Assembly (NCBI GenBank): GCA_945875845.1
Contig: CAMCMB010000039.1
Location: forward strand, 1-63,942
Direction: 5' to 3'
From: Pirellula staleyi DSM 6068
GTDB taxonomy: Bacteria > Planctomycetota > Planctomycetia > Pirellulales > Pirellulaceae
DNA length: 63,942 bases
Under the pieces are notes generated by a model. The model was not told where the DNA came from. It made no database searches and was given only the letters and a program-made list of their open reading frames with translations. The stretch's first letter is position 1, and each line of letters begins with the position of its first letter. This document shows positions 552 to 56,412 of the stretch, one piece after another. The translations under genes were made by a program, and so were the position numbers.

Positions 552-605
552 GCCGACATTAGCGTGGCTCTTGGGTGAGTCCAACAGAATTAGCGATCGT
601 GACAT

Positions 606-816
606 ATGCCGTCGCTTTGCGACTCGTTGGATCATGGAATCGATCCTGGGGTTTCGTTCGCCTTCGCTCACTTCACCCCAGGCTATCGAATGCCGTCGCT
701 TCGCGACTCTGAGTCGCAAAGCGACGGCATGTGATAGCCACGGGTAAGGTGGCGACAGCCACTGCAACCCGTGGCACCATGTGCCCCTGCTATCGTGAGT
801 CGCAACGCGACGGCAT
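606..816. repeat. Cluster of palindromic REP-like units
   Basis: Four copies of a unit built on GCCGTCGC..GCGACTC occur at 606-625, 690-709, 711-730 and 797-816. The two middle copies face each other as a near-perfect inverted repeat, extended by CTATC at 683 and GATAG at 732. A further stem, CCACGGGT (738-745) with ACCCGTGG (768-775), lies between. Open frames crossing the cluster are by-products of the repeats. The stretch holds no convincing gene. Confidence 0.75.
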
Positions 817-897
817 ACGGGGGATAACAGGCAGGTCTTGGCTTGGAAATGGTTTCATGCATAGCGGTGCGGCAAACCGCGAAGCGGTTCAACATCG

Positions 898-1065
898 TAG
901 CCCGGGGTCGCGCCGCGCACCCCGGGAACTTCGCCCCAGTTCCGCCGAACCCCATCGGGGTTCAACAACTCAGAGGTGGATCTAAGGGCCTGATTGTGCA
1001 ACCCCGTTGGGGTTGAACGAGCCGTTCGTTTCCAGACCCGGGGTGCGGTGCGCGACCCCGGGCTA
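898..1065. repeat. Composite inverted repeat with CCCGGGG arms
   Basis: The arm at 898-926 (TAGCCCGGGGTCGCG and on) is matched as an inverted copy at 1037-1065 (ending CGCGACCCCGGGCTA). Between them lie two short palindromes, CCCCATCGGGG near 950-960 and CCCCGTTGGGG near 1001-1011. The whole can fold as a large cruciform. It looks like an interspersed non-coding repeat. No gene is supported between 552 and 1471 apart from the att repeat and the displaced integrase tail. Confidence 0.65.
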
Positions 1066-1124
1066 TATTGTTGAACGCCTTAGGCGTTGTCAGCCCGATA
1101 CGGATCAAGTCGCAAGCACATACG

Positions 1125-1150
1125 AAAAAAGCCCCGATAATTCAGGGCTT
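1125..1150 (-). terminator. Rho-independent terminator, probably the original tRNA-Val terminator
   Basis: On the minus strand the stem AAGCCC / GGGCTT (1145-1150 with 1129-1134) closes a 10-nt loop and is followed by a run of T. It lies 46 nt beyond the tRNA-derived repeat at 1196-1217. Before the element inserted, it would have been directly downstream of tRNA-Val. Confidence 0.7.
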
Positions 1151-1195
1151 TGACGAGATTTGTCGCTTGTTGGCTTCGCTTGGCAAAACTGCATG

Positions 1196-1217
1196 AGTGG
1201 ACGATATTGGACTCGAA
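1196..1217. other. Left attachment repeat (displaced tRNA-Val 3' end)
   Basis: The sequence AGTGGACGATATTGGACTCG plus AA is identical to 8218-8239. It corresponds to the T-arm and acceptor 3' strand of tRNA-Val on the minus strand. Flanking bases differ on both sides (G/A before, A/C after), so the identity block is exactly 22 bp. Confidence 0.88.
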
Positions 1218-1392
1218 AACACTTCAAAACCCTAGGGAAAACGAGTTGTTTCAATCAACTGGGTACTACAGTGGGGACTATCCCGAGTTGGCGGGTACTG
1301 ATGAACTACTTGCCACATGGGCCAAATTGGATGAGCCGGCCCGGCGTGATCTGCTGGCGGTTGCCCGTGGTTGGGTGAAGGTGGCACCATGA
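1218..1392 (+). other. Displaced alternative C-terminal coding segment of the integrase
   Basis: Read in the frame that the integrase uses across the att core, this segment continues after WTILDS with KTLQNPRENEL and later AGTDELLATWAKLDEPAR, ending in a TGA at 1390-1392. It has no start of its own that makes sense: the open frame begins only 46 nt upstream of the core. In the excised circle the integrase gene (to 8239) would join this segment (from 1218) without a frame change. A helical tail of this kind is plausible for planctomycete integrases, from memory. The competing +1 frame at 1160-1378 also encodes a GTTVGTI match to the integrase linker, so an old frameshift or duplication here is possible. 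Confidence 0.7.
1260..1281 (+). repeat. Copy 1 of a 22-bp repeat flanking the att core (possible arm site)
   Basis: GGGTACTACAGTGGGGACTA with one further base on each side is identical to 8050-8071 and in the same orientation. In the circular form one copy would lie on each side of the recombination core, as arm-type integrase binding sites do. It is also part of coding sequence, so coding duplication is the alternative. Confidence 0.55.
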
Positions 1393-1471
1393 GCCAAGCC
1401 GCTGATCAGCAGAAAGCGAATACAACCATTCCAGCGTCTAAAGCACACTGATCCATAAAGCAATTTCTTCG

Positions 1472-1996
1472 CTACTGTGTTTTGACTGCGAGTGGATGCT
1501 TCTCGCAGTTGATGTTGTTCGGGGTCGGATCGATGTACCAAATTCCGTATTTCTTTAGAGCGGACAGGGCAGATTGCACTAGTTCCCAATTGCCGTCGAA
1601 CAAACTGCTCTTTTCCTCTTCATATTCCGCCCATTGTTCGGACGTGTAATCTGGACGAGTCATCCAAGATTTGCCGAAGTCTAGAAGGTATGGGGGAGAG
1701 ACAATTGACATTTCAACGACAAGGAATTCAGAATCAAAATCGATCAGCCTTGGTACCGTAAATCCGGCAATTTCGTCGATATCCCTTTCCTTTAGCTTTA
1801 GGTAGCAATGGACTTCTCGATCAAAATTCCCAATTCGATCAAATACTTTGACGGCAGTTTCCCGATTAGTTTTCCAGACAATTCCCTCCTGCCCGACCCC
1901 CAATGGATTGCCAAAATCGATTAAGATTTGCCTTGAGTGGCCAAAGTCCTTTGCTCGAATCACCAGTTTGTCGTTGCTCATGTCGGTTAAACGCAC
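1472..1996 (-). CDS. Short protein-kinase-like protein, element cargo
   Basis: The 174-residue product has the N-lobe and catalytic-loop landmarks of the protein-kinase fold: a glycine-rich loop GVGQEGIVW, an AVK lysine in TAVKVFDR, a possible helix-C glutamate in DREVHCY, a hinge FLVVEMS, and YIDPTPNNI in the place of HRDxxxxN, keeping the Asp and Asn but not the His. The protein ends about 13 residues later, so there is no DFG segment and no C-lobe. It is either a truncated kinase or a member of a naturally short kinase-like family; I lean to the second because the frame is clean. A GTG start at 1996 has GGGAAGAG six bases upstream; the ATG at 1981 is the alternative and overlaps the ATG of the facing gene. 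Substrate unknown. Transcription would run out toward the left att site. Confidence 0.75.
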   Translation of the reverse strand: MRLTDMSNDKLVIRAKDFGHSRQILIDFGNPLGVGQEGIVWKTNRETAVKVFDRIGNFDREVHCYLKLKERDIDEIAGFTVPRLIDFDSEFLVVEMSIVSPPYLLDFGKSWMTRPDYTSEQWAEYEEEKSSLFDGNWELVQSALSALKKYGIWYIDPTPNNINCEKHPLAVKTQ

Positions 1997-2222
1997 TCCC
2001 TACTCTTCCCAAGTAATTCTTCAACTTGCCATTGCCGGGCAAACCATTGCTCTTGCGCAAGTCGGACCCGATTTTTTCGTTTTACGAGATCTGCCGACAG
2101 TTTCCCAATTGTCTGGGAATGGGCGTGTTGATGTAATCATCAACAATACCGTCGCAACTAGTAAAACCGTTTTTCTTCCACACGGCATTGTGAACGGATC
2201 AAAACGAGTTTCCTATTTTTGA
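1980..2222 (+). CDS. Small hypothetical protein facing the kinase-like gene
   Basis: The product is about 80 residues from ATG 1980, which overlaps the possible ATG (1981) of the divergent kinase-like gene in a shared CATG. It contains LAIAGQTIALAQVGPDFFVL, a leucine- and valine-rich beta pattern, then VDVIINNTVATSKTVFLPHGI and a basic end. The pattern resembles small hypothetical proteins of the form ..IxLAQVGPDFL..LPxGI that I remember from diverse bacteria; I know no assigned function. No clear ribosome-binding site precedes the ATG. The head-to-head arrangement suggests co-regulation or a two-component cargo module, such as toxin and antidote or defence; that is inference only. Confidence 0.6.
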   Translation: MSVKRTPYSSQVILQLAIAGQTIALAQVGPDFFVLRDLPTVSQLSGNGRVDVIINNTVATSKTVFLPHGIVNGSKRVSYF

Positions 2223-2289
2223 TCACTCTGAATTCCATTTTTATAGGAATTGATCCCGTCAGCTCTTCCATTGTCTCGCAAAGTATCGA

Positions 2290-2472
2290 GTGCCGACGTG
2301 GTTGGAACAATCTACCAATGCCCCTGGCGTCGATCCTCAAGCGATCAAATTGCACAAACGGTTGAACGGTGCCCTAGAACGTGGCGACGTATTGGAAAGC
2401 CTGCGATTGATGCGGGAGCTTAACCGTAATTGTGAGAGCGTTGGATACCGTCCACAGAATACGCTCAATTGA
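2290..2472 (+). CDS. Possible small protein of 60 residues
   Basis: A GTG-started frame encodes a short, mostly helical, charged product (KLHKRLNGALERGDVLE..LMRELNRNCE). Amino-acid composition looks protein-like and it follows the small cargo gene by 67 nt in the same direction. No motif is recognised and no strong ribosome-binding site is visible. It may be a real small element gene or a chance frame. Confidence 0.35.
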   Translation: MPTWLEQSTNAPGVDPQAIKLHKRLNGALERGDVLESLRLMRELNRNCESVGYRPQNTLN

Positions 2473-3004
2473 GACTCGGCAAGCTTGAGCCATCAAGAGC
2501 CCATTGCCTAAGCGGTTTGGCTAGGGGGGGCGGATCAAAATAGGCATGCAGAGCGTAGCGAGACCACGGGCTACTTCCGTACGTTTCCACAAATCGAGAG
2601 CCCTAAACAGGTGGCACCTTTATTTGATTGTTGGCAGGCGGATAGGTACGATAGTGCCCGGCCTACTTTGGGTCCCAATCGGAGGGTGACAGGGCCATGC
2701 GGCTTTGCTACTCCCATTTAACCTACCAAAAATCCGTCCGGTGAATCCAGTGAATCCGGTAACTCGTGGCGGGGGTACGGGGGCGGTGTGCCCTTTTTGG
2801 ATCCTAGCCAATCCAGGCAAACAAGCCTCGCGATGGAACGTCCCGATCCTCTCACACATAGTTCCTAGTTCCGGCGGGAATTGCTTTGGGGGTTCGGGGG
2901 CGGTCTGCTTGCCTCTACAGTTTTTTGCGATGCCCCGATAGAATCCTGGAATCGGGTAGCGGCCTAATTAACCGCGTACGGTCACCCATCGGCAACGTGT
3001 CTCC
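2473..3004. other. Stretch without a supported gene
   Basis: This element interior shows short G-rich repeats, including a direct repeat GTGAATCC(A/G)GTGAATCC at about 2741-2758. Open frames here have proline- and glycine-rich, low-complexity products and are not convincing. A replication origin for the circular form could lie here, but nothing proves it. Confidence 0.35.
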
Positions 3005-3055
3005 ATGCGTTCCCCTGGGTTGGCCGGCCCTTCATTCACAATGGAGATTCTGGAA

Positions 3056-4126
3056 ATGGGATATGCTGATCTAGCGGTGGAATGTGATCGACCAAACGCC
3101 AAAGGACTTGAGCGAACGATTCTTGTCTGCAAAAAGTGGGTAGCGAATCACTTGGATGCAGAAACATGGCTGGAAGATCGAAAACAAGAATTGATTCTCG
3201 CTTTCCCGCGTTGTTTGATTTCCTACTCTGAAATTTCCGATCTAACAGAGAAACTTCTGAATGCCAAAGCAACATTCAGATTTGCAGCCTTGAAACAAGC
3301 AAAGGTGACAAAGTCGACAGACTTGCGTGAGTTGGATATTGCAGACATCGAAGAAGATATTGAGACTTTCAAAAGAGACGAAGAATCGGGAATCGAACCG
3401 GATCCACAAAAAGTTCTGTTGTGTGAAAACAAGGTGAACAAGTCGAGAGCATCTTTGCAACGTGATAGGGACGAATTGGATAAAGCGAGCATGACGTTTT
3501 TTCGTGTTGAAGTATCGCTTGAATGGTTGGATGAGCAGCTAGATCAACGAAAACAGGAATTGACAGAGCTGAAAGAAAACTTCAGTATTCGGCTGTCCGA
3601 ATTGGAACCGTTGTTGTTGCAATTTGCGATGAGTGGAGCAGCGATAGATCAAGAGATCGAGCAGCTAGTTCCAAGTCTCTCACAACATCATCAGGAATTG
3701 GTCTATGCATGGCTTCAATCGAAATGGGAAGTACGCGAAGCGAATTGGGGAACGTTGTATGGCAAACTAAAAACATCGACCAACGAGCAAAGAGTAGAGA
3801 CGTTTAGGAACCTGGAACAACCCGTTGCCCCGGTGGTAGTATCGTTGCAAACGGACGTACTGGAAAATGGTCTAGATCGGGAAACTTGTTCGTTTAGGTG
3901 GGGAATCGATCTGTTTGTAAATTTGTCGGATGAGGTTATGAAAGCGATGGAGTTAATCGAAAAAAACTACAACCGTGGACGGATGACAACAAAGCAAAAT
4001 CTACTCAAAAAGTCCTCACAAGATTCGATCGGTAAGCTATTTCGTAGCGGTGACGCTAAGCGTATCGGTGAAATGTTGGTTCAAGTTGGCAGTAGCGTAA
4101 ACCTGCCCCCTCTCAATTGCCCGTAG
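3056..4126 (+). CDS. Coiled-coil protein of unknown function, element cargo
   Basis: The product is about 356 residues. ATG 3056 is preferred because GGAG lies nine bases upstream; ATG 3041 is possible. Roughly residues 50-215 are highly charged and helix-prone, with Leu/Ile at heptad-like spacing (DIADIEEDIETFKRDEE, LEWLDEQLDQRKQELTELKE), so a long coiled coil is likely. The C-terminal part (SFRWGIDLFVNLSDEVMKAM, then a lysine-rich stretch) looks globular and basic. No signal peptide or membrane segment is seen. Base composition is visibly richer in A than the neighbouring replication genes, which fits exchangeable cargo. It lies between the left-end cargo and the replication module. I do not recognise the family; defence or superinfection exclusion are possibilities only. 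Confidence 0.75.
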   Translation: MGYADLAVECDRPNAKGLERTILVCKKWVANHLDAETWLEDRKQELILAFPRCLISYSEISDLTEKLLNAKATFRFAALKQAKVTKSTDLRELDIADIEEDIETFKRDEESGIEPDPQKVLLCENKVNKSRASLQRDRDELDKASMTFFRVEVSLEWLDEQLDQRKQELTELKENFSIRLSELEPLLLQFAMSGAAIDQEIEQLVPSLSQHHQELVYAWLQSKWEVREANWGTLYGKLKTSTNEQRVETFRNLEQPVAPVVVSLQTDVLENGLDRETCSFRWGIDLFVNLSDEVMKAMELIEKNYNRGRMTTKQNLLKKSSQDSIGKLFRSGDAKRIGEMLVQVGSSVNLPPLNCP

Positions 4127-4232
4127 ATTGCCCGGTGAATGTCCTAGAGCCTGCCCGGTGACATCCGGAATACTACCTTGCGTTGGCTGATCGTAGTGAT
4201 CGGCCTATTTGATATACGCATTGGAGTATGCA

Positions 4233-4439
4233 ATGGAAGAGAGTAAAGAACTGGTTCCGTTAGCCGTTATGGCTAAGCGGCTGCGGGTGCCCTCTAAGTG
4301 GCTGCGTGAGCAAGCCGAAGCCGGTGATGTGCCTGGGTTGCTGGCCGGGAATCGGTGGTTGTTTCGGCCTGATGTAGTTGCCCCGATCGTGGCTGCAATG
4401 GCGGCTTCCACAGTCGAATCGAAAGTGGGTGCGGAATGA
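4233..4439 (+). CDS. Small helix-turn-helix protein, excisionase/AlpA-like
   Basis: The 68-residue product contains PLAVMAKRLRVPSKWLREQAEAG followed by VPGLLAGNRWLFRPDVV, the layout of MerR/excisionase-type winged helices: helix, turn, recognition helix, then a short wing before a domain-closing Val/Leu. GGAG sits six bases upstream of ATG 4233. It overlaps the next gene by 4 nt (ATGA), so both are probably translated together. In integrative elements such proteins bind DNA as recombination directionality factors or activate the integrase. Which of the two adjacent HTH proteins has that role cannot be decided here. Confidence 0.8.
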   Translation: MEESKELVPLAVMAKRLRVPSKWLREQAEAGDVPGLLAGNRWLFRPDVVAPIVAAMAASTVESKVGAE

Positions 4440-4684
4440 CTCCAATCGAGATCCAACAATTAGCCGATGCCATTGCTGAGCGGTTGGCCTGTCGTGCCAC
4501 TGGTGACACTATGCTTGATGCCCTCGGGGCGGCTGCGTTGCTTGCATGTTCGGTGCCGACAATCGAGCGGCTTACCAAGTCGGGCGAAATCCCCTCGGTG
4601 AAAGTTGGCCGGTTGCGGCGATACCGGCGGGCTGATTTGATGGCCCTAGAAAACAAAAAAGGGGGTGGCGATCATGGCAAGTAA
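4436..4684 (+). CDS. Helix-turn-helix protein, excisionase family type
   Basis: This 82-residue protein has an N-terminal amphipathic helix (IQQLADAIAERLA) and then LGAAALLACSVPTIERLTKSGE, IPSVKVGRLRRYRRADL, the usual HTH_17 pattern in which the recognition helix is followed by KVGRLRRYR. It starts inside the stop of the preceding HTH gene and ends within the start of the DUF3987 gene (stop at 4682-4684, next ATG at 4674). A paired set of small HTH proteins in front of a replication gene suggests a regulatory switch between integration and excision or replication. Confidence 0.85.
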   Translation: MTPIEIQQLADAIAERLACRATGDTMLDALGAAALLACSVPTIERLTKSGEIPSVKVGRLRRYRRADLMALENKKGGGDHGK

Positions 4685-6407
4685 TCGAAACCCTCAAGCA
4701 AAACTTGATGTGAACCATTCTAAACACGTCGATGAGCCTGGGAAGCCATGGGGTGAGCCTAAGGCCCTACCGGATCCACTGCCAACCGTAATGGCTTATT
4801 CCAGTGACTTACTGCCCAAGTCGATTGGGGCGGCGGTCGATGACATTGCTGAGCGGATGCAATGCCCCCCAGACTTCCCAGCGGCGGCAATGCTTGTTGC
4901 GTTGGCGGCGTTGGTCGGGTGTCGTGTTGGCATTAGGCCACGGCGTCATGATGATTGGCTTGTGGTGCCGAATCTATGGGGTGCGGTCGTAGGGCGGCCA
5001 TCTTTGAAGAAATCCCCAGGCATCCAAACGGCGGAAAAACGGATTCGAGCTATTGAAGCCCGAGAGCGTGAGCGGTTGGAACCAAGCATACTTTCGGCGG
5101 CTGTCGATGTGATGGTGGCCGAGGCCAAAATAAAGGCCCTCAAACAGGATTTCGACAAGGCCATTAAAGTTGGTAACGAGCCCGAGGCTAGGCGGTTGGC
5201 CGAGTCGATGAAAGAACTTGAGGAAACTGGTCCGCCAATACCCCGGCGGATCATTACCACGGATCCCACAATCGAAAAATTGTGCGACATGCTTAACGTG
5301 CATCGGTCGGGGATGTTGCTTTGGGTCGATGAGCTAGTTGGATGGATGCGTTCGTTAGATCGTGACGATAAGGCAGGCGTGAGGCAACAATTCTTGACCC
5401 TATGGAATGGCCAAGGTCGATTGAACATTGATCGAATTGGCCGAGGCGAAACCGTGGTTGAGTCTCCATGCGTTGGCTTGTTTGGATGCTGTACCCCTGG
5501 CGGTTTGAGCGACTACGTTTTGGCGGCCATCAAGGGCGGTCGTGGTGACGATGGCTTGATGCAACGGCTGCAAGTGATTGTTTGGCCGGATTCGCCCAAG
5601 GGTTATCGGCATGTTGATCAATGGCCCGATTCCCCAGCCCGTCAAATGTTGGCGGAAGTGTTCGAGCGGTTGGCGGATCTTGAGCCTAGCGAGTTTGCAT
5701 CGATCGATAAGTTCGATGATGGCAAGATTCCATGGCTTAGATTCGATGATGCTGGCCAAGCGGTGTTTGATCAATGGGATTCTAAGTTGCAACGGCGGTT
5801 GCGTTCGGATGACTTGCCTGAGGCGTTGGAATCGCATTTGAGCAAGTACGCGTCCATGGTTCCAAGTATTGCCCTGGTGTTGCATTTGGCATCGGGCGAT
5901 CTTGGCCCCGTGAGCGGTGAGGCTGCGGCAACGGCGGTTCGTTGGTCGGAATATCTTGAATCCCATGCGAATCGAGTCTATTCCATTGCAACGGCCCCCG
6001 AGAGGCAAGCGGCGTTGCCATTGCTACGGCGGTTGATTGAATGGCCTGCGGATAAGGCAATTCGTGTTCGATCGATTCGAGAGCATGGCTGGGCGTCCCT
6101 GAGCGATACGGATTCCATTGAAGGTGCTTTGGATCTACTGATCGACTGCGGATGGGTGCAAGCGTTCGAGATTAAGCCAACGACTGGCCGGCCAACTACG
6201 GAATTCTTTTTGCATCCTGAGGCATCGCAATTTCTGAAAACTGTAAGGAACGGAACCCACAAAACCATCGAAACTCCTTCCAAGAGTACTTTTGAGGGTT
6301 TTGAGGGTTCGAAATCTAAGGAAACGGAAATAAATTTGGCCCCGAGGATCCCGGCGGCGGATGTGGAAATCAAGCCAACGGCGGCCCGAGAAAAGGGGTT
6401 CGTTTGA
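4674..6407 (+). CDS. DUF3987 (YfjI-like) protein, putative replication helicase/primase type
   Basis: The protein is about 577 residues. Segments typical of DUF3987 are visible: FPAAAMLVALAALVGCRVGI, PNLWGAVVGRPSLKKSPGI (the P-loop-like region, here GRPSLKKS), a charged helical insert around residues 120-190, then GMLLWVDELVGWMRSLDR (Walker B-like) and LFGCCTPGGLSDYV with GGRGDDGLMQRLQV. In this family the fold is AAA/helicase-like and members are common replication proteins of satellites and small integrative elements. The C-terminal 100 residues look like a separate winged-helix region. ATG 4674 is used; GTG 4665 is an alternative. It is coupled to the HTH gene upstream and the zinc-ribbon gene downstream (TGATG). 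Confidence 0.85.
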   Translation: MASNRNPQAKLDVNHSKHVDEPGKPWGEPKALPDPLPTVMAYSSDLLPKSIGAAVDDIAERMQCPPDFPAAAMLVALAALVGCRVGIRPRRHDDWLVVPNLWGAVVGRPSLKKSPGIQTAEKRIRAIEARERERLEPSILSAAVDVMVAEAKIKALKQDFDKAIKVGNEPEARRLAESMKELEETGPPIPRRIITTDPTIEKLCDMLNVHRSGMLLWVDELVGWMRSLDRDDKAGVRQQFLTLWNGQGRLNIDRIGRGETVVESPCVGLFGCCTPGGLSDYVLAAIKGGRGDDGLMQRLQVIVWPDSPKGYRHVDQWPDSPARQMLAEVFERLADLEPSEFASIDKFDDGKIPWLRFDDAGQAVFDQWDSKLQRRLRSDDLPEALESHLSKYASMVPSIALVLHLASGDLGPVSGEAAATAVRWSEYLESHANRVYSIATAPERQAALPLLRRLIEWPADKAIRVRSIREHGWASLSDTDSIEGALDLLIDCGWVQAFEIKPTTGRPTTEFFLHPEASQFLKTVRNGTHKTIETPSKSTFEGFEGSKSKETEINLAPRIPAADVEIKPTAAREKGFV

Positions 6408-6745
6408 TGGTCGAAACTCTGCTACGCGAATTGAAGGCGATCGGCGTAATTCTGTTTATCGAGGATGGCCGGCTAGGGTTCGATGCCCCTAGCGGTTCGA
6501 TGACCGGTGAGCTACTAGCCCGAGTTCGTGCAGAGCGTGAGGGCTTGCTGGCATTGCTTCAAGGTGAACAACCAACAATGCCGGAGCCGTGTGGGGCGAT
6601 CTGTCCATACTGCCGATCGGAACTGCTTGAGGATGTCGAGCTGGGTTGGCAGTGTTGCAAGTGCAAGCGGTTGGCGTGGATTTGGCTTCCCGGTGGTTCG
6701 ATTGTTCGGGCGGATTGCGAACACATGGATCTTGAATGGAGCTAA
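6407..6745 (+). CDS. Small protein with TubC-like N-terminus and zinc ribbon
   Basis: The 112-residue product starts with VETLLRELKAIGVILFIEDGRLGFDAP, which resembles the TubC-type N-terminal docking fold, followed by a helix. The C-terminal half has CGAICPYCRSEL and WQCCKCKRLAWIW, two CxxC knuckles that should bind zinc. In other elements a TubC-like stretch is fused to DUF3987-type proteins, so this may be a separated part of the replication protein. The start codon overlaps the stop of the DUF3987 gene (TGATG), so the two products are probably made in step and may interact. Confidence 0.75.
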   Translation: MVETLLRELKAIGVILFIEDGRLGFDAPSGSMTGELLARVRAEREGLLALLQGEQPTMPEPCGAICPYCRSELLEDVELGWQCCKCKRLAWIWLPGGSIVRADCEHMDLEWS

Positions 6746-47938: not shown

Positions 47939-48089
47939 GGATCAAGCGTTTTGCCCCATCGAAGAAGCGAACCGACAGCGCACTAGCATAAATAGCCCAA
48001 AAAGTGCAGAAAACTTGTTTCCCCCGCCCTTTCGGAACGCTAAACTTCATAAGGATTTTCTAAACCCGGCCCGTGAGACTGAGGTATCG

Positions 48090-48818
48090 ATGGCGCCCAA
48101 ACAAGTATTGCATCGAAGTTCTATTGATGGGGCATCCGACGAATCGATCGTGTTGGTACTCTTAACGTTGCAGGACAGAATGTCCTTGCCTGCGGAAAAG
48201 CAGGATGGCTTGCGATTTCTGTTCGAATTGCTTAATCCGGCGACACTTTATTCGATCAAAAGTCTGATCGGGGCGAGCGTTCGACATCGATTGGATGACG
48301 AGCAAATCGCATTAGACGTTTTTTGCGACATGACTCCATATTTGCTAGGCGAGCGTCCCTTCAAAAACGCTAGTCTAAATGGTCTGTTATCTCTGTGCAG
48401 AAAGATTGCCAAGTCGAAAGTCATTAACGAAGTAACGAAAATCGGCAGGCTTCGACGACAGGAGCCCATCATGCAAAGCTTAATCGGCGAACTGCAGGAA
48501 AAAACGCGTGAGGCTCCCGACCAGATCGCTGAGTGGCGAGAAGAAGTCGAGAATTGGATTCAGAAACTAAATTCTCCTGAGTTATCCGCAGTTCTCGTAT
48601 ATCGCATGGAGGGCCTATCCATCAAGGATGTTGCCAGTCGACTAAAAATCACAAGACGAACAGTTCAGCGTAGATGGGCCCGTATCTCATTGGCGCTAAC
48701 ACAATACCATTCCGAAGGAGGTTTCGCAGCTCACTTCCCAAGTCCCCAAGTCCCCAAGTCCCCAGCAATAGTAAAAGCAGATACGAATGGCGAAATCCAA
48801 CAACACCGTTCAAAATAG
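48090..48818 (+). CDS. ECF-like RNA polymerase sigma factor
   Basis: The 242-residue protein has a region-2-like helix set (RRHLDDEQIALDVF is replaced here by VRHRLDDEQIALDVFCDMTPY) and region 4 with VYRMEGLSIKDVASRLKITRRTVQRRWARI, the recognition helix. Length and C-terminal extension fit planctomycete ECF groups. GAGGT lies four bases before ATG 48090. It immediately precedes the peptide/C39/pseudopilin genes in the same direction, 120 nt away, and may control them. No anti-sigma gene with a recognisable domain is adjacent. Confidence 0.82.
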   Translation: MAPKQVLHRSSIDGASDESIVLVLLTLQDRMSLPAEKQDGLRFLFELLNPATLYSIKSLIGASVRHRLDDEQIALDVFCDMTPYLLGERPFKNASLNGLLSLCRKIAKSKVINEVTKIGRLRRQEPIMQSLIGELQEKTREAPDQIAEWREEVENWIQKLNSPELSAVLVYRMEGLSIKDVASRLKITRRTVQRRWARISLALTQYHSEGGFAAHFPSPQVPKSPAIVKADTNGEIQQHRSK

Positions 48819-48941
48819 GAAAACTATTTGGGTGTATTTTCGGGAACCGTGTCGCATTGACCCATGAAATATTGCTTCTACTTGTAGGGGAATTAGTTGT
48901 ACGTTCAATAAGACCAAATCACCGAGAGATTGGAATCCAAA

Positions 48942-49297
48942 ATGACAAAATTTGTAGCGTGTCTTGGAATTGCGGCTATCGCAATGGTTGCTAACGTTGT
49001 CGTTCCAAAGTCGACATTGCTTGTAACAGAGACTTTCCATTCATCGATTTTCGGGGGGCATTCGTTTACGTGGATTGCAACATGTCCGACTATACGGAAC
49101 CATTGTGCAGGGCCAAAGCTGGAATGAGTTGCGTTGTTGATCACTATCGACTTTTCAACGACGGTCAAGATTTGCTGGATATGTTATCCGAGCAAAGAGA
49201 TGCTTGTACAGCCAACGGTTGCATTAATGAGAAAATGGTTTGGACTTACCCAGATCCTGTTTCTCCGTGCACAAAAACTCACAAGACCACTCAATGA
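48942..49297 (+). pseudogene. Small exported six-cysteine peptide, split by a frameshift at a G-run
   Basis: ATG 48942 opens a frame with a signal-peptide-like start (TKFVACLGIAAIAMVANVVV). At the run of six G (49053-49058) the frame that continues sensibly is the -1 frame: AFVYVDCNMSDYTEPLCRAK, SCVVDHYRLF, DACTANGCINEK, SPCTKTH, ending at 49297. One additional G would restore a single reading frame of about 118 residues with six cysteines after the signal. Without it the product stops after 61 residues. A sequencing error, a real loss of one base, or slippage during expression could each explain it. It sits between the sigma factor and the membrane protein gene, where a secreted substrate would be expected. 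Confidence 0.7.
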
Positions 49298-49355
49298 TTT
49301 GGTTCTCGATTGTAGTTGAATAGAACCTAGTGGCTGATTTTTCAGGTGGATCTTA

Positions 49356-50498
49356 ATGACTCTAACCCGCGATTTTGGTGCGTTGATCGTTGTTTGGATC
49401 TGTACGGTGTTTTTCGGCCAATTGTACGGAGCCGAAAAAGCATCTGATTTCGATGTAATTTACCCAACGACGTTTGAGTATCTTGAGTCACACTCTGCTA
49501 TCCCTGATGGTGACGTGTATATTATGAGCGTGGGATCTGTGCGTGTCAAAGATCTTCACAATTTCCGTTTGAAACGCTTGTCTGCGACCACGATCGATCC
49601 CAAGTATATTCAGAACGGAATGAATCTTATTTTAGTTGAGACGACTCAAATCGCATCGGGGACCGAATTGTTGAAACTATCCCGACAAACAGAACCATTC
49701 AAGGCAGAATTTCCATCGAGCAGAGAAAGCTTGGAAAAACTAGCCAACGAACTTGACAAATGCGACTTGAGTTTGAAGCTATACTCAAAACCCAAGGTTC
49801 CTTTCGGGGAAACTCACCTCAGCAAGCTTCACGTTTTCACGGACTTTTCCATTCCGTTCCTACAGGGAAGTTCTAATACACTTGACCTTACTGAGATTCG
49901 GGTGGACGCCACAAAGCCTGATAGAAGGTTATGCGATCTGTCAAAAGGAGGTGTTCAGTTTCATGGAGAATTCGAAAAGTTTCAGGGCAACTGGCGACTT
50001 TTACACTCGTCACAACAGTCAAGACCGGCAAGTTCAAGATCCCAACAAAAGAAAGAGGACATAGTCTCAAGACTCATCTCCGTTTGTGATATTAAGTACG
50101 TCAATCAGAATGGTTTCGAAGTCACTTCCAAGTCCGAGGCGATCTACAGTAGTGGTAAGAAAGGTGGTTCAACGTCAAACATGGTTGCCACTGGTATGAC
50201 TTTCGGTGGAACGGTGAACGCCCTTTTGACAGAGGTGATTCCGAACGGCACTCGCGTTTTTTTGGACGGACAAGAACAAATCAAAGCTGTTTGGCAAGAC
50301 GGCAAGGTGGTTCGGGTCTATCACAAAGGGACCATCGACGATTTGAGTCAATCACAGTTTGCATCGACAGGAGGCAGAAACTTCGAGACCTATTTTTGGT
50401 TGTTGCTTTGTTTTATCGCTATTCCGTTGATCGTGGTTATTCTTAACAGATTGAATCGCAAGAAAAAACAGCAACCGGGGTTCCGAAGTATACCATGA
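49356..50498 (+). CDS. Exported protein with C-terminal membrane anchor, function unknown
   Basis: The 380-residue product has a signal peptide (IVVWICTVFFGQLYGAE) and a single C-terminal membrane segment (YFWLLLCFIAIPLIVVIL) followed by a basic tail. The intervening part is beta-rich, with VYIMSVGSVRVKDLHNFRLK and later AVWQDGKVVRVYHKG. No catalytic motif is recognised. A 4-nt overlap (ATGA) links it to the C39/rhodanese gene, so both proteins are probably made together and located at the outer face of the membrane. Confidence 0.8.
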   Translation: MTLTRDFGALIVVWICTVFFGQLYGAEKASDFDVIYPTTFEYLESHSAIPDGDVYIMSVGSVRVKDLHNFRLKRLSATTIDPKYIQNGMNLILVETTQIASGTELLKLSRQTEPFKAEFPSSRESLEKLANELDKCDLSLKLYSKPKVPFGETHLSKLHVFTDFSIPFLQGSSNTLDLTEIRVDATKPDRRLCDLSKGGVQFHGEFEKFQGNWRLLHSSQQSRPASSRSQQKKEDIVSRLISVCDIKYVNQNGFEVTSKSEAIYSSGKKGGSTSNMVATGMTFGGTVNALLTEVIPNGTRVFLDGQEQIKAVWQDGKVVRVYHKGTIDDLSQSQFASTGGRNFETYFWLLLCFIAIPLIVVILNRLNRKKKQQPGFRSIP

Positions 50499-51595
50499 CC
50501 AAATCCTTTGCGTTGCATGCAGTACTTTGCATTCTAATCTGCACAAGCATGCTTGGAAATTTTGTCCATGGAGCACAGATTCCTCGCCAGCAAACTTTGG
50601 GAAACTACTGTGGTATTTATGCGGTGTATGGTGCTGTTTCCACCGTGCTGCGCGAGGATGGACAATCGGTAACTTTGCCGTTTGACGATCTACTGCAGAC
50701 GGACTTTGTGTCTTCGTACAAAGGGAGTTCGAGCGACGATTTAGAGAAAGCAGCAAGGTTTTTGGGTGCGGAGGCAACGACGTATCGATGGCTAAGCGCC
50801 TTCACGCTTCGATCATCTTCAAAACCGCTAGTTTTGCACGTGAGCCCTCGAGGCAGACCCGGCAAGTATACGCATTGGTTGTTGTTTCTTGGAATCCAAG
50901 ATGGAAAGGCGTTGGTAAAGGACGGTGAGGGTGGTTCGTTTCTGGTTGATGTATCTGACTTGGTTTCGAGATGGGACGGTATTGCAGTCTGTGTCTTTTC
51001 TCGAAACCAATCTCCACCAAACTTTGTTTCTACAGATATTTTTGTCTTCACCTTGCAAATTGCCGTTGCATTGAGTCTTGTTTTTTTGGGTTCAAGTGTA
51101 TTCCATTGTCTTTTATCACCTACCCTAATGAATGAGCTTGTGGTGTTCTGCTGCGTGATTCTCTGCGGTTTTGTCGCCTGCTATTGCTCGCCCAGTATTC
51201 CAAAGATTCGTCGAGCTAACGCATTTGCAATTGCGCATGAACTTGGCGCAACCCAATTCCCGGAAATTAGTATCGATGAGTTGAGTTGCGTTTGTCACGA
51301 TCCTTCCAATTCCAGCGTTATTATTGACTGCCGCTACGATTTCGATTTTGTCGATGCGCATTTGCCCAACGCAGTCAACATGCCAGTCGACATTGCGACT
51401 GTACAGCTACTTGAGATGACCCATGGCCTACCGTTAACGACAGAGTTTGTTCTCTACTGTCAATCCGCTGGGTGTCATTTTTCGGATATCATTGCAGGTG
51501 AGTTGACGCGTTTAGGATTTCATCGATTACGAATTTTCCGGCCGGGAATGCTGGCATGGGAACGTGCTGGAATGCCTTGCGAGGTGCGCAAGTGA
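50495..51595 (+). CDS. C39/papain-like peptidase fused to a rhodanese domain
   Basis: The 366-residue protein has a signal peptide (HAVLCILICTSMLGNFVHGA) and then a papain-fold peptidase region resembling family C39: catalytic Cys39 in TLGNYCGIYAVYGA, His in GKYTHWLLFLGI, and an Asp in ALVKDGEGG. A membrane pair follows (IAVALSLVFLGSSVFHCLL; ELVVFCCVILCGFVACYC). The C-terminal 120 residues are a rhodanese: VIIDCRYDFDFVDAHLPNAVNMPV, the active Cys loop VLYCQSAGCHFSDI, and IFRPGMLAWERAGMP. C39 enzymes usually remove leader peptides of double-Gly type; rhodaneses move sulfur or act on persulfides. Their fusion suggests thiol-based maturation of an exported peptide. Confidence 0.85.
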   Translation: MTKSFALHAVLCILICTSMLGNFVHGAQIPRQQTLGNYCGIYAVYGAVSTVLREDGQSVTLPFDDLLQTDFVSSYKGSSSDDLEKAARFLGAEATTYRWLSAFTLRSSSKPLVLHVSPRGRPGKYTHWLLFLGIQDGKALVKDGEGGSFLVDVSDLVSRWDGIAVCVFSRNQSPPNFVSTDIFVFTLQIAVALSLVFLGSSVFHCLLSPTLMNELVVFCCVILCGFVACYCSPSIPKIRRANAFAIAHELGATQFPEISIDELSCVCHDPSNSSVIIDCRYDFDFVDAHLPNAVNMPVDIATVQLLEMTHGLPLTTEFVLYCQSAGCHFSDIIAGELTRLGFHRLRIFRPGMLAWERAGMPCEVRK

Positions 51596-52989
51596 CGTGG
51601 TGGTATACATTTTTATTGAAATTTGCGACGATAGTTTTGGCCACGATTCTAATGGTGAGTGGAGTGTTGCATCTAAGGAACCCACCTGATCATTTCGTCT
51701 CTATTGTCAACTATCAGTTCATTCCTGTAGTTGCAGCCGAAACTCTTTCGCTTTTGCTGCCCATCATGCATATCGCCTGTGGAGTCGGAATGCTCATAGG
51801 AGAACTAGCACGAGCTGCATCGATCGTCGCATGCTTTGTTTTTGGTACTTACCTGGTTTCTCAGATTGCAGCGTTCGCGTATGGGATGCAGATCAATTGT
51901 GGATGCTTTGGAACTTCACACCTGGATCCTATAGGATGGATGACGATTGCACGAACATCCATCCTCCTTGGCGTTGCCATAATCATTGTATACGCTTTGA
52001 ACTTTCGAAGGCCTCTGGACTCTTCCCCCCAATCAAGCGGTCGCCATTTCCGAGAGGGCGTAACAATCATTGAATTGGTTGTAGTTATAGGAATCATTGG
52101 AATCTTGGCATCTCTAACTCTGCCAGCTGTTTCCGCGGCACGAGAACGCGCACGAATGGTTCAGTGCGTTAATAACCTGAGGCAATGCGGACAAGCAGCA
52201 ATGTTGCACGAGTCCGCCGTGCGATTTTACCCCTCGAATGGTTGGGGGTATTTGTGGGTAGGGTTGCATGATAGGGGCTTTGGAGCAAAGCAGCCGGGGG
52301 GTTGGCTGTTTTCTATTTTGCCGTTCATCGAGCAGACACGCCTTTATGAAATGTCTCCAACTGAGAGTCGACGACATTCACGCGAACAATTTCAATCCTA
52401 TGTTCGAATGTCCGTTGACACATTCTTATGCCCCTCACGTCCAGTTCCCGTGATAAACCCGGTGAGAGAACCGCTCGATTATCATTTTGGGGGAACGGTC
52501 GTGGATCTAGCCCGCGTTGACTTTGCGGTGAACGCGGGAGACATTTCGTGGGAGACCTATAGCGGACCTGCGTCGCTGACAGATATTCATTATGTTTGGC
52601 CGTCGACAAGCATGGCGAGTGGCATGTCCTTCGTTAGATCCGAAGTAAAACAATCGAATGTTCTGGACGGGGCGAGTCAAGTAATTTACTGCGGTGAAAA
52701 ATGGGCACCGCGCGGCGAACAGTACTTGGGAAATGGTTTTAATCAGCCCTTAACCGCCGGTGAGAACCGAGACTTACATCGCTTTACCGTTGGTCCACCG
52801 GTCGGTGATGGCGATAGCCAACTTGGCTCGATTTCGCAGTTTGGATCAAGCCATGCCAATGGATGTAATTTTGTTTTCGTGGATGGAGCAACTCACGTTA
52901 TATCTTATTCAATACACCCAGCGGTGTTTTCGAAATTAGGAAACAAGGGGGATGGTCAATCGCTTGATCTAGGTGGCATTGTCGAGTAA
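51592..52989 (+). CDS. MauE/DoxX-like membrane domain fused to a pseudopilin/DUF1559 domain
   Basis: From GTG 51592 (overlapping the previous stop) the product is 465 residues. Residues 1-140 are a four-helix MauE/DoxX-like domain with the MauE hallmark NCGCFG and a redox-type CxC pair. After a short linker comes a type IV pilin-like motif REG|VTIIELVVVIGIIGILAS with Gly156 before the cleavage point and Glu at +5. It continues as a DUF1559 protein (MVQCVNNLRQCGQAAMLHE, LFSILPFIEQTRLYEM, SSHANGCNFVFVDGATHVISY). A prepilin peptidase could split it into a redox membrane protein and a pseudopilin. Such an N-terminal extension is very long for a prepilin leader. Confidence 0.88.
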   Translation: MTWWYTFLLKFATIVLATILMVSGVLHLRNPPDHFVSIVNYQFIPVVAAETLSLLLPIMHIACGVGMLIGELARAASIVACFVFGTYLVSQIAAFAYGMQINCGCFGTSHLDPIGWMTIARTSILLGVAIIIVYALNFRRPLDSSPQSSGRHFREGVTIIELVVVIGIIGILASLTLPAVSAARERARMVQCVNNLRQCGQAAMLHESAVRFYPSNGWGYLWVGLHDRGFGAKQPGGWLFSILPFIEQTRLYEMSPTESRRHSREQFQSYVRMSVDTFLCPSRPVPVINPVREPLDYHFGGTVVDLARVDFAVNAGDISWETYSGPASLTDIHYVWPSTSMASGMSFVRSEVKQSNVLDGASQVIYCGEKWAPRGEQYLGNGFNQPLTAGENRDLHRFTVGPPVGDGDSQLGSISQFGSSHANGCNFVFVDGATHVISYSIHPAVFSKLGNKGDGQSLDLGGIVE

Positions 52990-53059
52990 GAGCATGTCTT
53001 CGGTCAGATGGGAGCGGTTAAGATGACCTTAATTGGACGCTTTCTGAGAGGAAATGCTT

Positions 53060-55624
53060 TTACTCGTACTGAAGGGCGGTGGAGAGGTTGAGCCGAGCGG
53101 CGCGTTCCGCTGGGATCATGGCTGCTACCACCACGACCGATATCTCGAACAGCAACGCTCCAATCAATAGCCAAGGGTGAATTTGATATTGGATGTCATG
53201 ACCGGTTACCGGCATGGTTGTCAAATTGATTTCGTACGAGATCCAAATACCTGTCAGAACGCCAGGAACGATTCCAATGATTCCCATGATCATCGCCTGA
53301 GCTAAAATCATTTTGCGAATTTGCCAACGCGTCATTGCAACGACACGTAGCATACCAATCTCTCGCGTCTGCTCCAAAATATTCATGGCCAATGTATTGA
53401 TCAACCCCAACGCAGCAATCAAGGTGCCAACTGCGAGAACAGCCCAGAGTCCACCCACCATGCCGTTGAGTTTCGATTGAATGATTCTTTCCAAGTCAAC
53501 ATTCGACTGAAACATCATTCCTGCCTCGTTGCATAAAGCTCGCAATTGATTTTCGACATTAGCCAACTCCTTTGGAATCGCCTTGATGACAACCACATCG
53601 GTGCCATCGATATTGAGAAGTTTCTTTGCAAATTCGGCTTCGAGATAGAGAGTCAAACCGCCCGCGATATACTCATTGGTCACTCCAGCAATTCTCAACA
53701 TCGTCGAACCTTGATTTGTGTCGAGCGGGATAGTATCGCCCATATGAAGGTTTAGCCGTTGGGAAAGCACCGAACCCAAAACAACTTCTCCATTTCGAAC
53801 GCCCGACATTACTTCCGATTCATTCCCCTCAATCAAATCGAAATAGTCCTGCGTCGTCGAGTTAAATTTTCGAACGACAACAACGACCGTTGCTTCATTG
53901 CTTCGCGCACTGACAAAGCGAAGCATATCGACCAACTCAACCCCAGGCATATCGACAATTTTTTCAACCAATCCATCGGGCATGTCCGCCGACTGCCCGC
54001 TATTCATATCCGGCATGGCAGCTCGAACAAAAAAATCCCCGACGATCGTCCGTTTGTACCAGCCCTCCACGTTTCGAATGTTGTCGAGAATGGTACTGGC
54101 CATACCTAATCCAGATCCCATTGCAATAAAGACAATTCCAATTGTCAAAGAAGATCGGCCTCGATGGCGAAGGATTTGCCGTCGTGCCAGCTTGGCTTCC
54201 GTCGGGAGAAACCTACCCAGCAGCCATGCCACCCAAGCCGTCAAGTCTCCAATGACTCCCGGGAGTAAGAAGACAATACCTATCTTCATAAGCATGACGC
54301 CGAAAATGGCATGTTTTACATCGATGATCGCGATGATCGATAGAACTTGGATTGCGGTTCCGATCAGGATGAGCGTACAGCCGAATCCAATCCATCCTAC
54401 TCTTGAGGTTCCGAATTCGCCCGTGGCGACAACTCGCATTGCCTCAGAGGGTGACAATCGCGACGCACGAAATGCGGGAAAGAAGGCGCCGATAAAAGAA
54501 ATGGCTACTCCGCATAGCGCTGCTATCAAATAGGGCCAAATCGAAAAAGGGCACGGCGGAATTTCAATTTCCAATAACTGAGCGGTCGACTTGCGAAGGA
54601 TTGAGTCTCCGAAATACCCCAATACGCAGCCCAAGATAGAACCGATTGAGCCGAGCCATAGCCCTTCGCGAACGATCATCAAAAGCAATTGCTTGCGTGT
54701 GCCACCGAGTGACCGAAGGATTCCGAGCTGTCTACGACGTTCCCCGACATTCATCTGAAACGTATTGTAGATCATCAACGTCGAGATCACTAAAGCGAAT
54801 AACGTTGCTAATCGAAGCCCTTGCTGTGGTGCAATCGTGCTTTCGTTTGCGACTTGACTTCGCAGCGTTGGCTCTCGCACATTCAAGCCTTCCGGAAGTT
54901 GGGCCTTGATCACGTCTCGCACGTTCTCCATCTTTGCGCCCGTGTCCAGGACAATTTGAATGGCATCGAGTTTGCCCGGCGCACGTGACCATCGCTGAAC
55001 GGTCGTGAGGTCTGCAACGATGAGTCCAGATTGCAGTGCGGCGCTCGCATCGTTTGGCTTGATTAAGCCGACAACGGTCGCAGCCTTCGGTTGCAAACTA
55101 CTTTTCGTGAGAAAGCGCACTTCACTTCCCACTTTTACGTTGGTGGACTTCGCAAAGCTGGCATCCATCAATACGCCTGGAGTGTTGCCTTCGGTCTGTT
55201 CTAGCCCACCGCCTTCCACCAACTGATAACTTCGAACTTGTTTGTCCAGAGTCGGGATGACACCTAGTAACTGCACTCGGAAACGTGTCGGTGTTATTGG
55301 CTCGTCGGAAGTGGAGTTCGCAGCGCCGGACAACGTCATGCTGGAATAGCGGCGAAGAATGGGCGACGCCACGGCCACACCCGGCAGACTTGCAATCGGC
55401 TCCAACGGCTTGCCATCAAAGGATAAACTTCCGGCTCCTTCAATTTCAAGGGATGCACTTCCTGTTACGGCTCGCACCATCGCGATCTGAGCGAGTTGCG
55501 CCGATGTCGATGCGAGAGAAGTTGCAACAATGGCTGCAACTCCAATCACGATACTAAGCAAGGTAAGCAAACTGCGGGTTGGTCGCGACTGAATTTCCCG
55601 AACAGATAGTTTCCTCAGTGGCAT
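53060..55624 (-). CDS. FtsX-like ABC transporter permease (MacB/LolC type)
   Basis: The 854-residue protein has an N-terminal membrane helix (LLTLLSIVIGVAAIVATSL), a periplasmic MacB-like domain (about 40-265), two FtsX membrane units (about 270-420 and 735-850) and between them a second periplasmic domain. Signature segments are NVGERRRQLGILRSLGGTRKQ and ILEQTREIGMLRVVAMTR. It belongs with the ATPase at 55624; TAATG overlap implies coupling. Family members extract lipoproteins or export peptides and toxins. No outer-membrane or adaptor partner is adjacent. Confidence 0.92.
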   Translation of the reverse strand: MPLRKLSVREIQSRPTRSLLTLLSIVIGVAAIVATSLASTSAQLAQIAMVRAVTGSASLEIEGAGSLSFDGKPLEPIASLPGVAVASPILRRYSSMTLSGAANSTSDEPITPTRFRVQLLGVIPTLDKQVRSYQLVEGGGLEQTEGNTPGVLMDASFAKSTNVKVGSEVRFLTKSSLQPKAATVVGLIKPNDASAALQSGLIVADLTTVQRWSRAPGKLDAIQIVLDTGAKMENVRDVIKAQLPEGLNVREPTLRSQVANESTIAPQQGLRLATLFALVISTLMIYNTFQMNVGERRRQLGILRSLGGTRKQLLLMIVREGLWLGSIGSILGCVLGYFGDSILRKSTAQLLEIEIPPCPFSIWPYLIAALCGVAISFIGAFFPAFRASRLSPSEAMRVVATGEFGTSRVGWIGFGCTLILIGTAIQVLSIIAIIDVKHAIFGVMLMKIGIVFLLPGVIGDLTAWVAWLLGRFLPTEAKLARRQILRHRGRSSLTIGIVFIAMGSGLGMASTILDNIRNVEGWYKRTIVGDFFVRAAMPDMNSGQSADMPDGLVEKIVDMPGVELVDMLRFVSARSNEATVVVVVRKFNSTTQDYFDLIEGNESEVMSGVRNGEVVLGSVLSQRLNLHMGDTIPLDTNQGSTMLRIAGVTNEYIAGGLTLYLEAEFAKKLLNIDGTDVVVIKAIPKELANVENQLRALCNEAGMMFQSNVDLERIIQSKLNGMVGGLWAVLAVGTLIAALGLINTLAMNILEQTREIGMLRVVAMTRWQIRKMILAQAMIMGIIGIVPGVLTGIWISYEINLTTMPVTGHDIQYQIHPWLLIGALLFEISVVVVAAMIPAERAARLNLSTALQYE

Positions 55625-56412
55625 TAGCGATTCCCCTCCGAGAGAATCGCGGGGTCGATCGGACGCGACGGAACCTTTGGAAACTGCCCCGACCCCATGT
55701 TAAACGCCTGCGCATTGGCAGCAAACTCTTCATGCGAAAGATCGCGTTCGATGTTGCCATCGCGAAACATGAGCAATCGAAATGCCGATTTCGCTACATT
55801 GGCGTCATGGGTCACCATCACGATGGTTTGTTTTGAATCGGTAGCTAGTTCGCCGAGCAACTTGGTAATGCGACCGCTTTGCCGCGAATCCAGGTTTCCA
55901 GTAGGTTCGTCGGCCAGTAAGATCGCAGGTTTGATCACGATAGCTCTCGCGACTGCAACACGTTGCTGCTCACCACCCGAGAGTTTGGCTGGAATATGAT
56001 CGGCTCTGTGCGTGAGCTCGACGCGTTCGAGCGCCTCCATGGCCTGTTTCTTGGCTGTCTTCCAATCGACACCATCCAATTCCAGCGGCAAGGAAATGTT
56101 TTCGACTGCAGAAAGCGTCGGAATCAGATTGAACGCTTGAAAGACAAACCCGATTTTTCGCCGTCTCAGTAATGTGCGTTCGTCATCATTCAAATTCGCG
56201 ATATCCACACCATCCAAAATCACTTGCCCAATTGTCGGCGGTTCGATTCCGCCAATGATACTCATGAGCGTGCTTTTTCCAGACCCAGAAGGGCCCATGA
56301 CAGCCACAAATTCGCCGCTTTCAATGGTAAGATCGACACCCCTCAATACCTCTACGGCCAAATCCCCCGTGCCGAATTGTTTGTAGAGATTTCGAGTGGT
56401 TATGATCGGCAT
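55624..56412 (-). CDS. ABC transporter ATP-binding protein (LolD/MacB type)
   Basis: The 262-residue ATPase has Walker A GPSGSGKSTLM, Q-loop GFVFQAFNLIPTLSAVEN, signature LSGGEQQRVAVARAI, Walker B ILLADEPTGNLD and MVTHDANVA with the switch His. The FVFQAFNLIP form is typical of the MacB/LolD group. A C-terminal extension of about 45 residues follows. It is upstream of and coupled to the FtsX-like permease. Confidence 0.94.
   Translation of the reverse strand: MPIITTRNLYKQFGTGDLAVEVLRGVDLTIESGEFVAVMGPSGSGKSTLMSIIGGIEPPTIGQVILDGVDIANLNDDERTLLRRRKIGFVFQAFNLIPTLSAVENISLPLELDGVDWKTAKKQAMEALERVELTHRADHIPAKLSGGEQQRVAVARAIVIKPAILLADEPTGNLDSRQSGRITKLLGELATDSKQTIVMVTHDANVAKSAFRLLMFRDGNIERDLSHEEFAANAQAFNMGSGQFPKVPSRPIDPAILSEGNR

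Follow-up and report, generated by a model that had tools for sequence, protein, structure and literature searches.

An exported peptidase, a rhodanese and a membrane redox protein probably constitute an extracytoplasmic maturation line for small, disulfide-rich peptides with a double-glycine (GG) motif in Pirellula staleyi DSM 6068 and its relatives. The window, i.e., the whole stretch of 63,942 nucleotides analysed here (contig CAMCMB010000039.1, from a genome of 7.0 Mb), carries the corresponding cassette on its forward strand between positions 48,090 and 52,989. Its core consists of genes for a small cysteine-rich peptide, a membrane-anchored partner protein, a C39 peptidase fused to a rhodanese, and a MauE domain, and the recurrence of this gene order in other genomes is beyond chance. 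Processing outside the cytoplasm, which an earlier reading of this DNA (hereafter the sequence-only reading) had not proposed, is the most likely interpretation.

Conserved gene order

Related loci were sought with the C39-rhodanese protein and then with a nine-row profile (A1) in 60 relatives, 241 genomes of the family and 392 genomes sampled phylum-wide. The raw tallies (25/60, 44/241, and 55/392) contain many rhodanese-only matches; rows spanning both C39 and rhodanese, counted by hand, were found in 22 of the 241 family genomes and 7 of the 392 genomes of the phylum sample, the window genome being included in both, plus one genome (G054) from the first search. This gave a total of 38 Planctomycetia loci with an exported C39-rhodanese protein, including five in G104, three each in G016 and G140, and two in G080. 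Their neighbourhoods were annotated with profiles built for this analysis.

MauE was located directly downstream of the C39-rhodanese gene, mostly overlapping it, in 37/38 loci; the exception, L108, had a MauE piece upstream of the peptide instead. The partner was a separate upstream open reading frame (ORF) in 29 loci and formed an N-terminal extension of the peptidase in three (L106, L116, and L118), giving 32/38. Those 29 include one partner truncated by a contig end (L136) and one mere fragment with no clear transmembrane (TM) helix (L114), and a further partner piece is broken off at the contig end in L042. An open peptide gene was present in 26/38 loci, 24 times ahead of the partner gene (or of the fusion) and twice downstream of MauE, in L131 and L132, with three and two tandem copies, respectively. 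The peptide was disrupted or cut in four loci (the window; L109, by an in-frame stop; L113, which has no leader; and L120, by a contig end) and could not be assessed in L042, L043, L125, and L136, which have no upstream sequence.

The sequence-only reading had described a five-gene cassette and had named loss of gene order in relatives as its own refutation; the order is conserved across the 38 loci. The C39 domain, the GG in most peptides, the paired cysteines and the MauE gene next in line in 37/38 support its proposal that a disulfide-rich exported peptide is matured here, and make it more specific. Profiles and sequence features confirmed the sigma factor, the TM-anchored protein, the C39-rhodanese and the MauE-pseudopilin that it had listed, whereas in the window its six-cysteine peptide is spread over two frames. 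The 4-nucleotide overlaps it had reported were found between the partner and C39-rhodanese genes and between the latter and MauE, provided that MauE starts at GTG 51592.

Outside the 38 loci are the C39-only loci L046, L128, L129, and L130, as well as L137 and L138 from another class. The latter two are paralogous and contain C39-like/rhodanese and MauE genes, with a C39 region in which no catalytic Cys was seen by eye, and an upstream gene of approximately 800 codons. In L130 (4047–5280), a C39 protein without rhodanese is followed by a look-alike protein seemingly without the catalytic Cys (judged by eye, and unmatched by the C39 profile); this pair stands after a peptide with GGG-C.

At the protein level, a one-protein query for related loci had L047 as its sole match, a near-identical locus on record as Pirellula sp. 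The L131 protein, on record from Gimesia alba, gave 60 matches as a single query, one of them named from a Bacteroidales metagenome-assembled genome. A protein search with profile A3 was swamped, with 5 matches and 8000 candidates, and PADLOC gave no match for the five proteins submitted.

C39 peptidase

The central gene (50495–51595, forward strand) encodes an exported C39 peptidase (PF03412, E 7e-6) followed by two TM helices and a rhodanese domain (PF00581, E 3e-10). The C39 domain comprises residues 34–172 (50594–51010), with Cys39, His127, and Asp143 as the catalytic residues. The catalytic Cys was present in 31/31 rows reaching the site, the His in 32/32 and the Asp in 30/32, and PF03412 matched 27 of 32 members. 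The modelled domain (predicted local distance difference test score, pLDDT, of 84) superposed on ComA, LahT (with its leader) and PCAT1. No ATP-binding cassette (ABC) domain was found in the 32 C39-rhodanese members at E ≤ 0.001, the C39 domain being followed by the TM helices and rhodanese; because this defining domain is absent, the system is not a peptidase-containing ABC transporter. A hydrophobic N-terminus was present on 36/38 C39 proteins, the other two being cut by contig ends, and no TM helix separates the partner ectodomain from C39 in the fusions L116 and L118. Judging from these features, the C39 domain is most likely located outside the membrane.

Peptide family

Candidate peptides were ORFs of 65–175 codons that began with a hydrophobic stretch and contained four or more cysteines after it; from the few candidates in each locus, the final choice was made by eye. 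The resulting set of 33 comprised 29 peptides from the 26 loci with an open gene and four from the C39-only loci. Left outside it were a tandem trio in L124, a second L046 peptide, and the disrupted or cut copies, among which those of the window, L109, and L120 all show GG and that of L113 showed none.

Double glycine is the cut site of C39 peptidases. Of the 33 peptides, 26 had a GG in the 16 residues ahead of their first mature Cys, whereas 5000 shuffles with the cysteines kept in place averaged 6.9 and never exceeded 15; within eight residues, GG preceded the first Cys in 24/33 cases vs. 21/206 for later cysteines. The number of cysteines, which was not a selection criterion, was even (6, 8, 10, or 12) in 32/33 peptides, and the odd exception, L121, has eight if counted past its GG. 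Because some of the 33 are closely related (L131, L132), these counts are partly non-independent. All 18 six-cysteine peptides fitted the spacing C-x7-13-C-x4-14-C-x21-30-C-x2-14-C-x8-16-C, and in 7 of the 11 eight-cysteine peptides the long loop was divided as x6-7-C-x9-12-C-x8-10.

No known family covers these peptides: among 17 scanned, NCBIfam gave no match and Pfam two families with a single weak match each. A peptide profile (A5) yielded 12 matches in 15 genomes (10 of its own members and two L132 peptides) and 10 matches in 241 genomes, all of them members, in each case in C39 loci only. The profile overlooked one of its own members, L037, as well as peptides outside it such as L041, so its sensitivity is too low to establish exclusivity to C39 loci.

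The window peptide gene is split, with leader and six-cysteine core in different frames. Its 5′ part (48942–49127, forward strand; P0002) encodes an exported leader as far as the GG and is out of frame thereafter; the initial 33 codons are identical in L037, which represents this locus in a second species of the genus. There, the near-identical gene is one open frame of 118 residues, whose database cluster holds six sequences on eight contigs and which includes the part encoding the mature six-cysteine peptide (49070–49297 in the window; P0003). Sequence reading and pairwise alignment placed the split at a G-run (49053–49058) whose length differs by one base from that in L037; the difference may be either a true mutation or an assembly error. 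An 81-residue variant of the window peptide (P0012), from which 37 internal residues are missing without loss of frame, is represented by eight sequences on 12 contigs.

Rhodanese and MauE

The rhodanese domain occupies residues 250–366 (51242–51592) and its active-site loop contains Cys322 and Cys327. This CX4C arrangement, with a second Cys at the position where Arg is usual, was found in 32/32 rows. The usual loop of sulfurtransferase rhodaneses is CX4R, and ten other rhodaneses met in the search, including L029 of the window genome, had YCGGGxR. The cassette rhodanese thus lacks the loop of active sulfurtransferases and, since CX4C points to thiol redox, the sulfur-modified peptide considered in the sequence-only reading appears unsupported. 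The nearest NCBIfam models for the window protein were NF045694 (TsoB rhodanese/DsbD fusion-like selenoprotein; 31.2 of 805 bits) and NF041203 (rhodanese-related (seleno)protein; 27.9 of 115 bits), both far below their curated cut-offs; at E ≤ 1e-5, they matched 10/32 and 21/32 members, respectively.

The MauE domain (51592–52050, forward strand; PF07291, E 1e-17) carries a CGCF motif. CGC was present in 37 of 39 MauE regions (31 CGCF, 3 CGCL, 2 CGCY, and 1 CGCW), the remaining two having CGWF and no motif. MauE has been speculated to aid disulfide formation in the beta subunit of methylamine dehydrogenase (cited in excerpts of PMC7794033), and we infer that the CX4C rhodanese may stand in for its thioredoxin-like partner. 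A CX4C rhodanese beside or overlapping MauE also occurred with no C39 in the ~3-kb locus in L072, L085, L088, L090, L092, L093, L095, and L096. Because the pair occurs without C39 in other planctomycetes, the C39 protease seems to have been joined to a ready-made rhodanese-MauE pair.

Partner protein and tandem arrays

The partner protein (49356–50498, forward strand) has a hydrophobic N-terminus, an ectodomain of ~300 residues and a single C-terminal TM helix, and belongs to no known family. A Pfam scan of 28 relatives returned four families with one weak member match each (best E 0.0004), and no relative was found in the PDB by profile, where the three matches had E 0.06–0.96.

In L124, the C39 operon adjoins three tandem peptide-partner pairs on the opposite strand (553–6007). 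The leaders of these peptides were 37/38 to 42/42 identical, while the cores, with 8, 10, and 8 cysteines, shared only 10/57 to 20/60 residues. The same pattern was seen in the partners, with C-terminal anchors identical at 40/45 to 43/45 positions vs. ectodomains at 41/237 to 58/241. A pilin piece lies alongside this array and a MauE-family gene (6098–6514) just upstream of it.

Accessory genes and cassette exchange

The sigma factor, the pseudopilin and the mannosyltransferase are accessory. The window encodes a sigma factor of the extracytoplasmic function (ECF) type upstream of the peptide (48090–48818, forward strand; PF07638, E 6e-9; PF08281, E 1e-6). Its membership of the core was rejected, as, of the 44 loci searched, just L037 and L121 had a homologue; L113 has a sigma factor of another kind. 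Thus the sigma factor that the sequence-only reading had counted as a cassette member falls outside the conserved core. Its view of the pseudopilin as an essential scaffold did not hold either: a DUF1559 pseudopilin was fused to MauE in 7/38 loci (the window, L037, L038, L044, L119, L122, and L124, the first two being one locus in two species) and located directly downstream in 12 more, i.e., present in only 19/38. In the window, a prepilin-like N-terminal helix with a GVTIIE site and the DUF1559 domain (PF07596, E 2e-31) follow MauE in the fusion (52051–52989, forward strand); the N_methyl match of this part (E 0.003) was under its cut-off. A prepilin-type site was found C-terminal to MauE in six of the seven fusions and not in L044. 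Given this position, a prepilin peptidase might free the pilin from MauE. A PMT-type mannosyltransferase was encoded within 2 kb downstream in 6/38 loci, a count from which short contigs may conceal more.

DUF1573 proteins, which occur near MauE-type genes elsewhere, were encoded near the cassette in L038 (12249–13238) and L046 (11097–12119). An ABC transporter on the opposite strand of the window (53060–56412) was considered as the exporter and rejected; it lies partly inside the tract exchanged with L037. Counterparts of it were not searched for systematically, and L038 has an unlike ABC pair ~3 kb from the peptide.

In the comparison of window positions 48000–55500 with L037, the cassette was 99–100% identical and the adjoining ABC permease 98%, compared to 86–96% in the nearer flanks and 90% in a 10-kb piece elsewhere. 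Because the identity of the cassette is above that of its flanks, recent exchange between species by recombination is indicated. The few codons that differed were residue-altering in 3/4 cases in the peptide core, 3/5 in the partner, 1/2 in MauE-pilin, and 0/1 in C39-rhodanese, and none had changed in the sigma factor; these numbers are too small for statistics.

Proposed mechanism

In the proposed route, an N-terminal hydrophobic leader would send the precursor out via Sec. The membrane-anchored C39 domain on the outer side would then cleave behind the GG located ahead of the first mature Cys; this is the strongest step, and the sequence data make such cleavage outside the membrane likely. 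In a third step, the CX4C rhodanese would shuttle thiol-disulfide equivalents between the peptide and MauE, pairing the 6–12 cysteines, and oxidation of the peptide by this couple is rather probable. In the last and weakest step, the mature peptide would be bound on the producer cell by the TM-anchored partner, whose most likely role would be immunity; pseudopilin and PMT-type mannosyltransferase would be optional helpers in release or glycosylation. Antagonism with immunity is favoured, if tentatively, because of the tandem pairs, in which leaders are constant but cores vary, and because of the recent cassette exchange. With their patchy spread, their multiple or disrupted copies and the paired diversification of peptide and partner, the cassettes look more like bacteriocin-immunity loci than like housekeeping genes.

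Several observations weigh against this scheme. The peptides were chosen partly by eye with the GG visible, and 7/33 lack GG in the 16-residue stretch, with GA in four peptides of L131/L132, GS in that of L046, and neither in those of L117 and L121. The second L046 peptide also has none, and in the L124 trio only one of three has GG before the core, which slightly lowered our confidence in GG cleavage. No peptide gene was found in L044, L110, L115, and L133 despite available upstream sequence, and that of the window is out of frame. Within C39, Asp143 is substituted in 2/32 rows, and the oxyanion Gln six residues N-terminal of the Cys was seen in 1/31 rows, the window's alone, although doubt about the role of this residue is expressed in the available portion of PMC6363468. 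Export was read from hydropathy with start codons selected in favour of hydrophobic N-termini, and a simple hydropathy scan counted two TM helices after C39 in 32/38 proteins, but one in four and three in two. The partner model (pLDDT 55) was too low for use, and because the partner could not be modelled its immunity role is a guess. Finally, the near-identical leaders and anchors of L124 could have arisen by gene conversion.

Alternative explanations

Instead of acting on rivals, the peptides might build a coat, stalk or adhesive fibre, the C39 cut licensing secretion and the disulfides cross-linking the product, with pseudopilin and mannosyltransferase as parts of the structure. FapD, described in excerpts of PMC5557850 as a Sec-exported periplasmic C39 peptidase required for amyloid secretion, offers a precedent, and the DUF1559 pseudopilin of 19/38 loci and the PMT-like gene of 6/38 would fit. 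A housekeeping coat would hardly be expected in only 22/241 family genomes, some with two to five copies of the full C39-rhodanese gene, nor with variable cores behind constant leaders in cassettes exchanged between species, and we regard this explanation as rather unlikely. Less likely still, the mature peptide could be a cell-cell signal, the partner its receptor and the ECF sigma factor of the window the output. Quorum peptides are also matured by C39/GG systems (according to the accessible part of PMC6363468), and the cassette has a sigma factor next to it in the window/L037 and L121, and one of another kind in L113. The partner, however, ends shortly after its C-terminal TM helix and contains no recognised signalling domain, and the window sigma factor lacks homologues in loci other than L037 and L121. 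Transfer of persulfide sulfur from the rhodanese to the peptide, giving a sulfur-modified product, is improbable: the fold has an active-site Cys and its solved-structure matches include sulfurtransferases, but the invariant CX4C differs from the YCGGGxR of the ten other rhodaneses, the constant partner is MauE, a proposed disulfide factor, and cysteine numbers are even. Programmed frameshifting at the G-run of the window is highly improbable even though leader meets core at a homopolymer exactly at the GG codons, given the single frame of L037 with its cluster of six sequences and the other ways in which further copies are broken (in-frame stop in L109; no leader in L113).

Comparison with known systems

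The peptidase fold and catalytic residues are common to the cassette and to PCAT1, ComA, and LahT, and a GG mostly precedes the mature part, as in the GG-leader peptides of class II microcins and bacteriocins. In contrast to C39 ABC transporters, the cassette protease has no ABC domain, carries its own hydrophobic N-terminus, apparently lies outside and continues into TM helices and a CX4C rhodanese; the peptide leader looks Sec-type, unlike that of ABC-exported GG peptides. In its apparent mode of action, the cassette resembles the maturation of double-glycine peptides, but with the protease shifted outside the membrane, as in FapD, and coupled to rhodanese-MauE.

The C39 peptidase FapD of the Pseudomonas Fap amyloid system likewise has a Sec signal, is periplasmic and has no transporter, and its target is described as unclear (excerpts of PMC5557850). 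According to the same excerpts, Fap is an amyloid system with an outer-membrane pore, whereas the cassette peptidase is membrane-anchored and accompanied by rhodanese, MauE and an adjoining GG peptide gene. The MauE family is shared with MauE/MauD methylamine dehydrogenase maturation, but no MauD was seen in cassette loci, a CX4C rhodanese stands beside MauE, and the presumed substrate is a small peptide. The function of MauD is called unclear in the part of PMC7794033 available to us; the parallel to the cassette is our own. In the candidate clusters of ribosomally synthesised and post-translationally modified peptides found by decRiPPter in Streptomyces, MauE homologues stand beside candidate precursors, as here, but these clusters are from a different phylum and C39 or rhodanese has no occurrence in the main text of PMC7794033. 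Glycocins are glycosylated disulfide-bearing peptides for which C39 and double glycine are mentioned, with no mention of MauE or rhodanese in the opening of the abstract (PMC12457901). Among the matches listed, no C39-rhodanese-MauE peptide system was described in the open literature.

Implications

The cassette may, as a tentative view, represent a previously unrecognised class of polymorphic disulfide-rich planctomycete peptide weapons (or signals), matured wholly outside the cytoplasm by Sec export, C39 cleavage at GG and CX4C rhodanese-MauE oxidation, with a co-diversifying partner for each peptide. This idea is open to testing, since the L131 protein comes from Gimesia alba, which we take to be a cultured species. 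If true, exported C39 peptidases would gain an evident substrate family, FapD being the only other case found, and rhodanese would join the possible partners in disulfide formation. Planctomycetota would then possess a family of exported cysteine-rich peptides that genome mining based on ABC-transporter context would miss.

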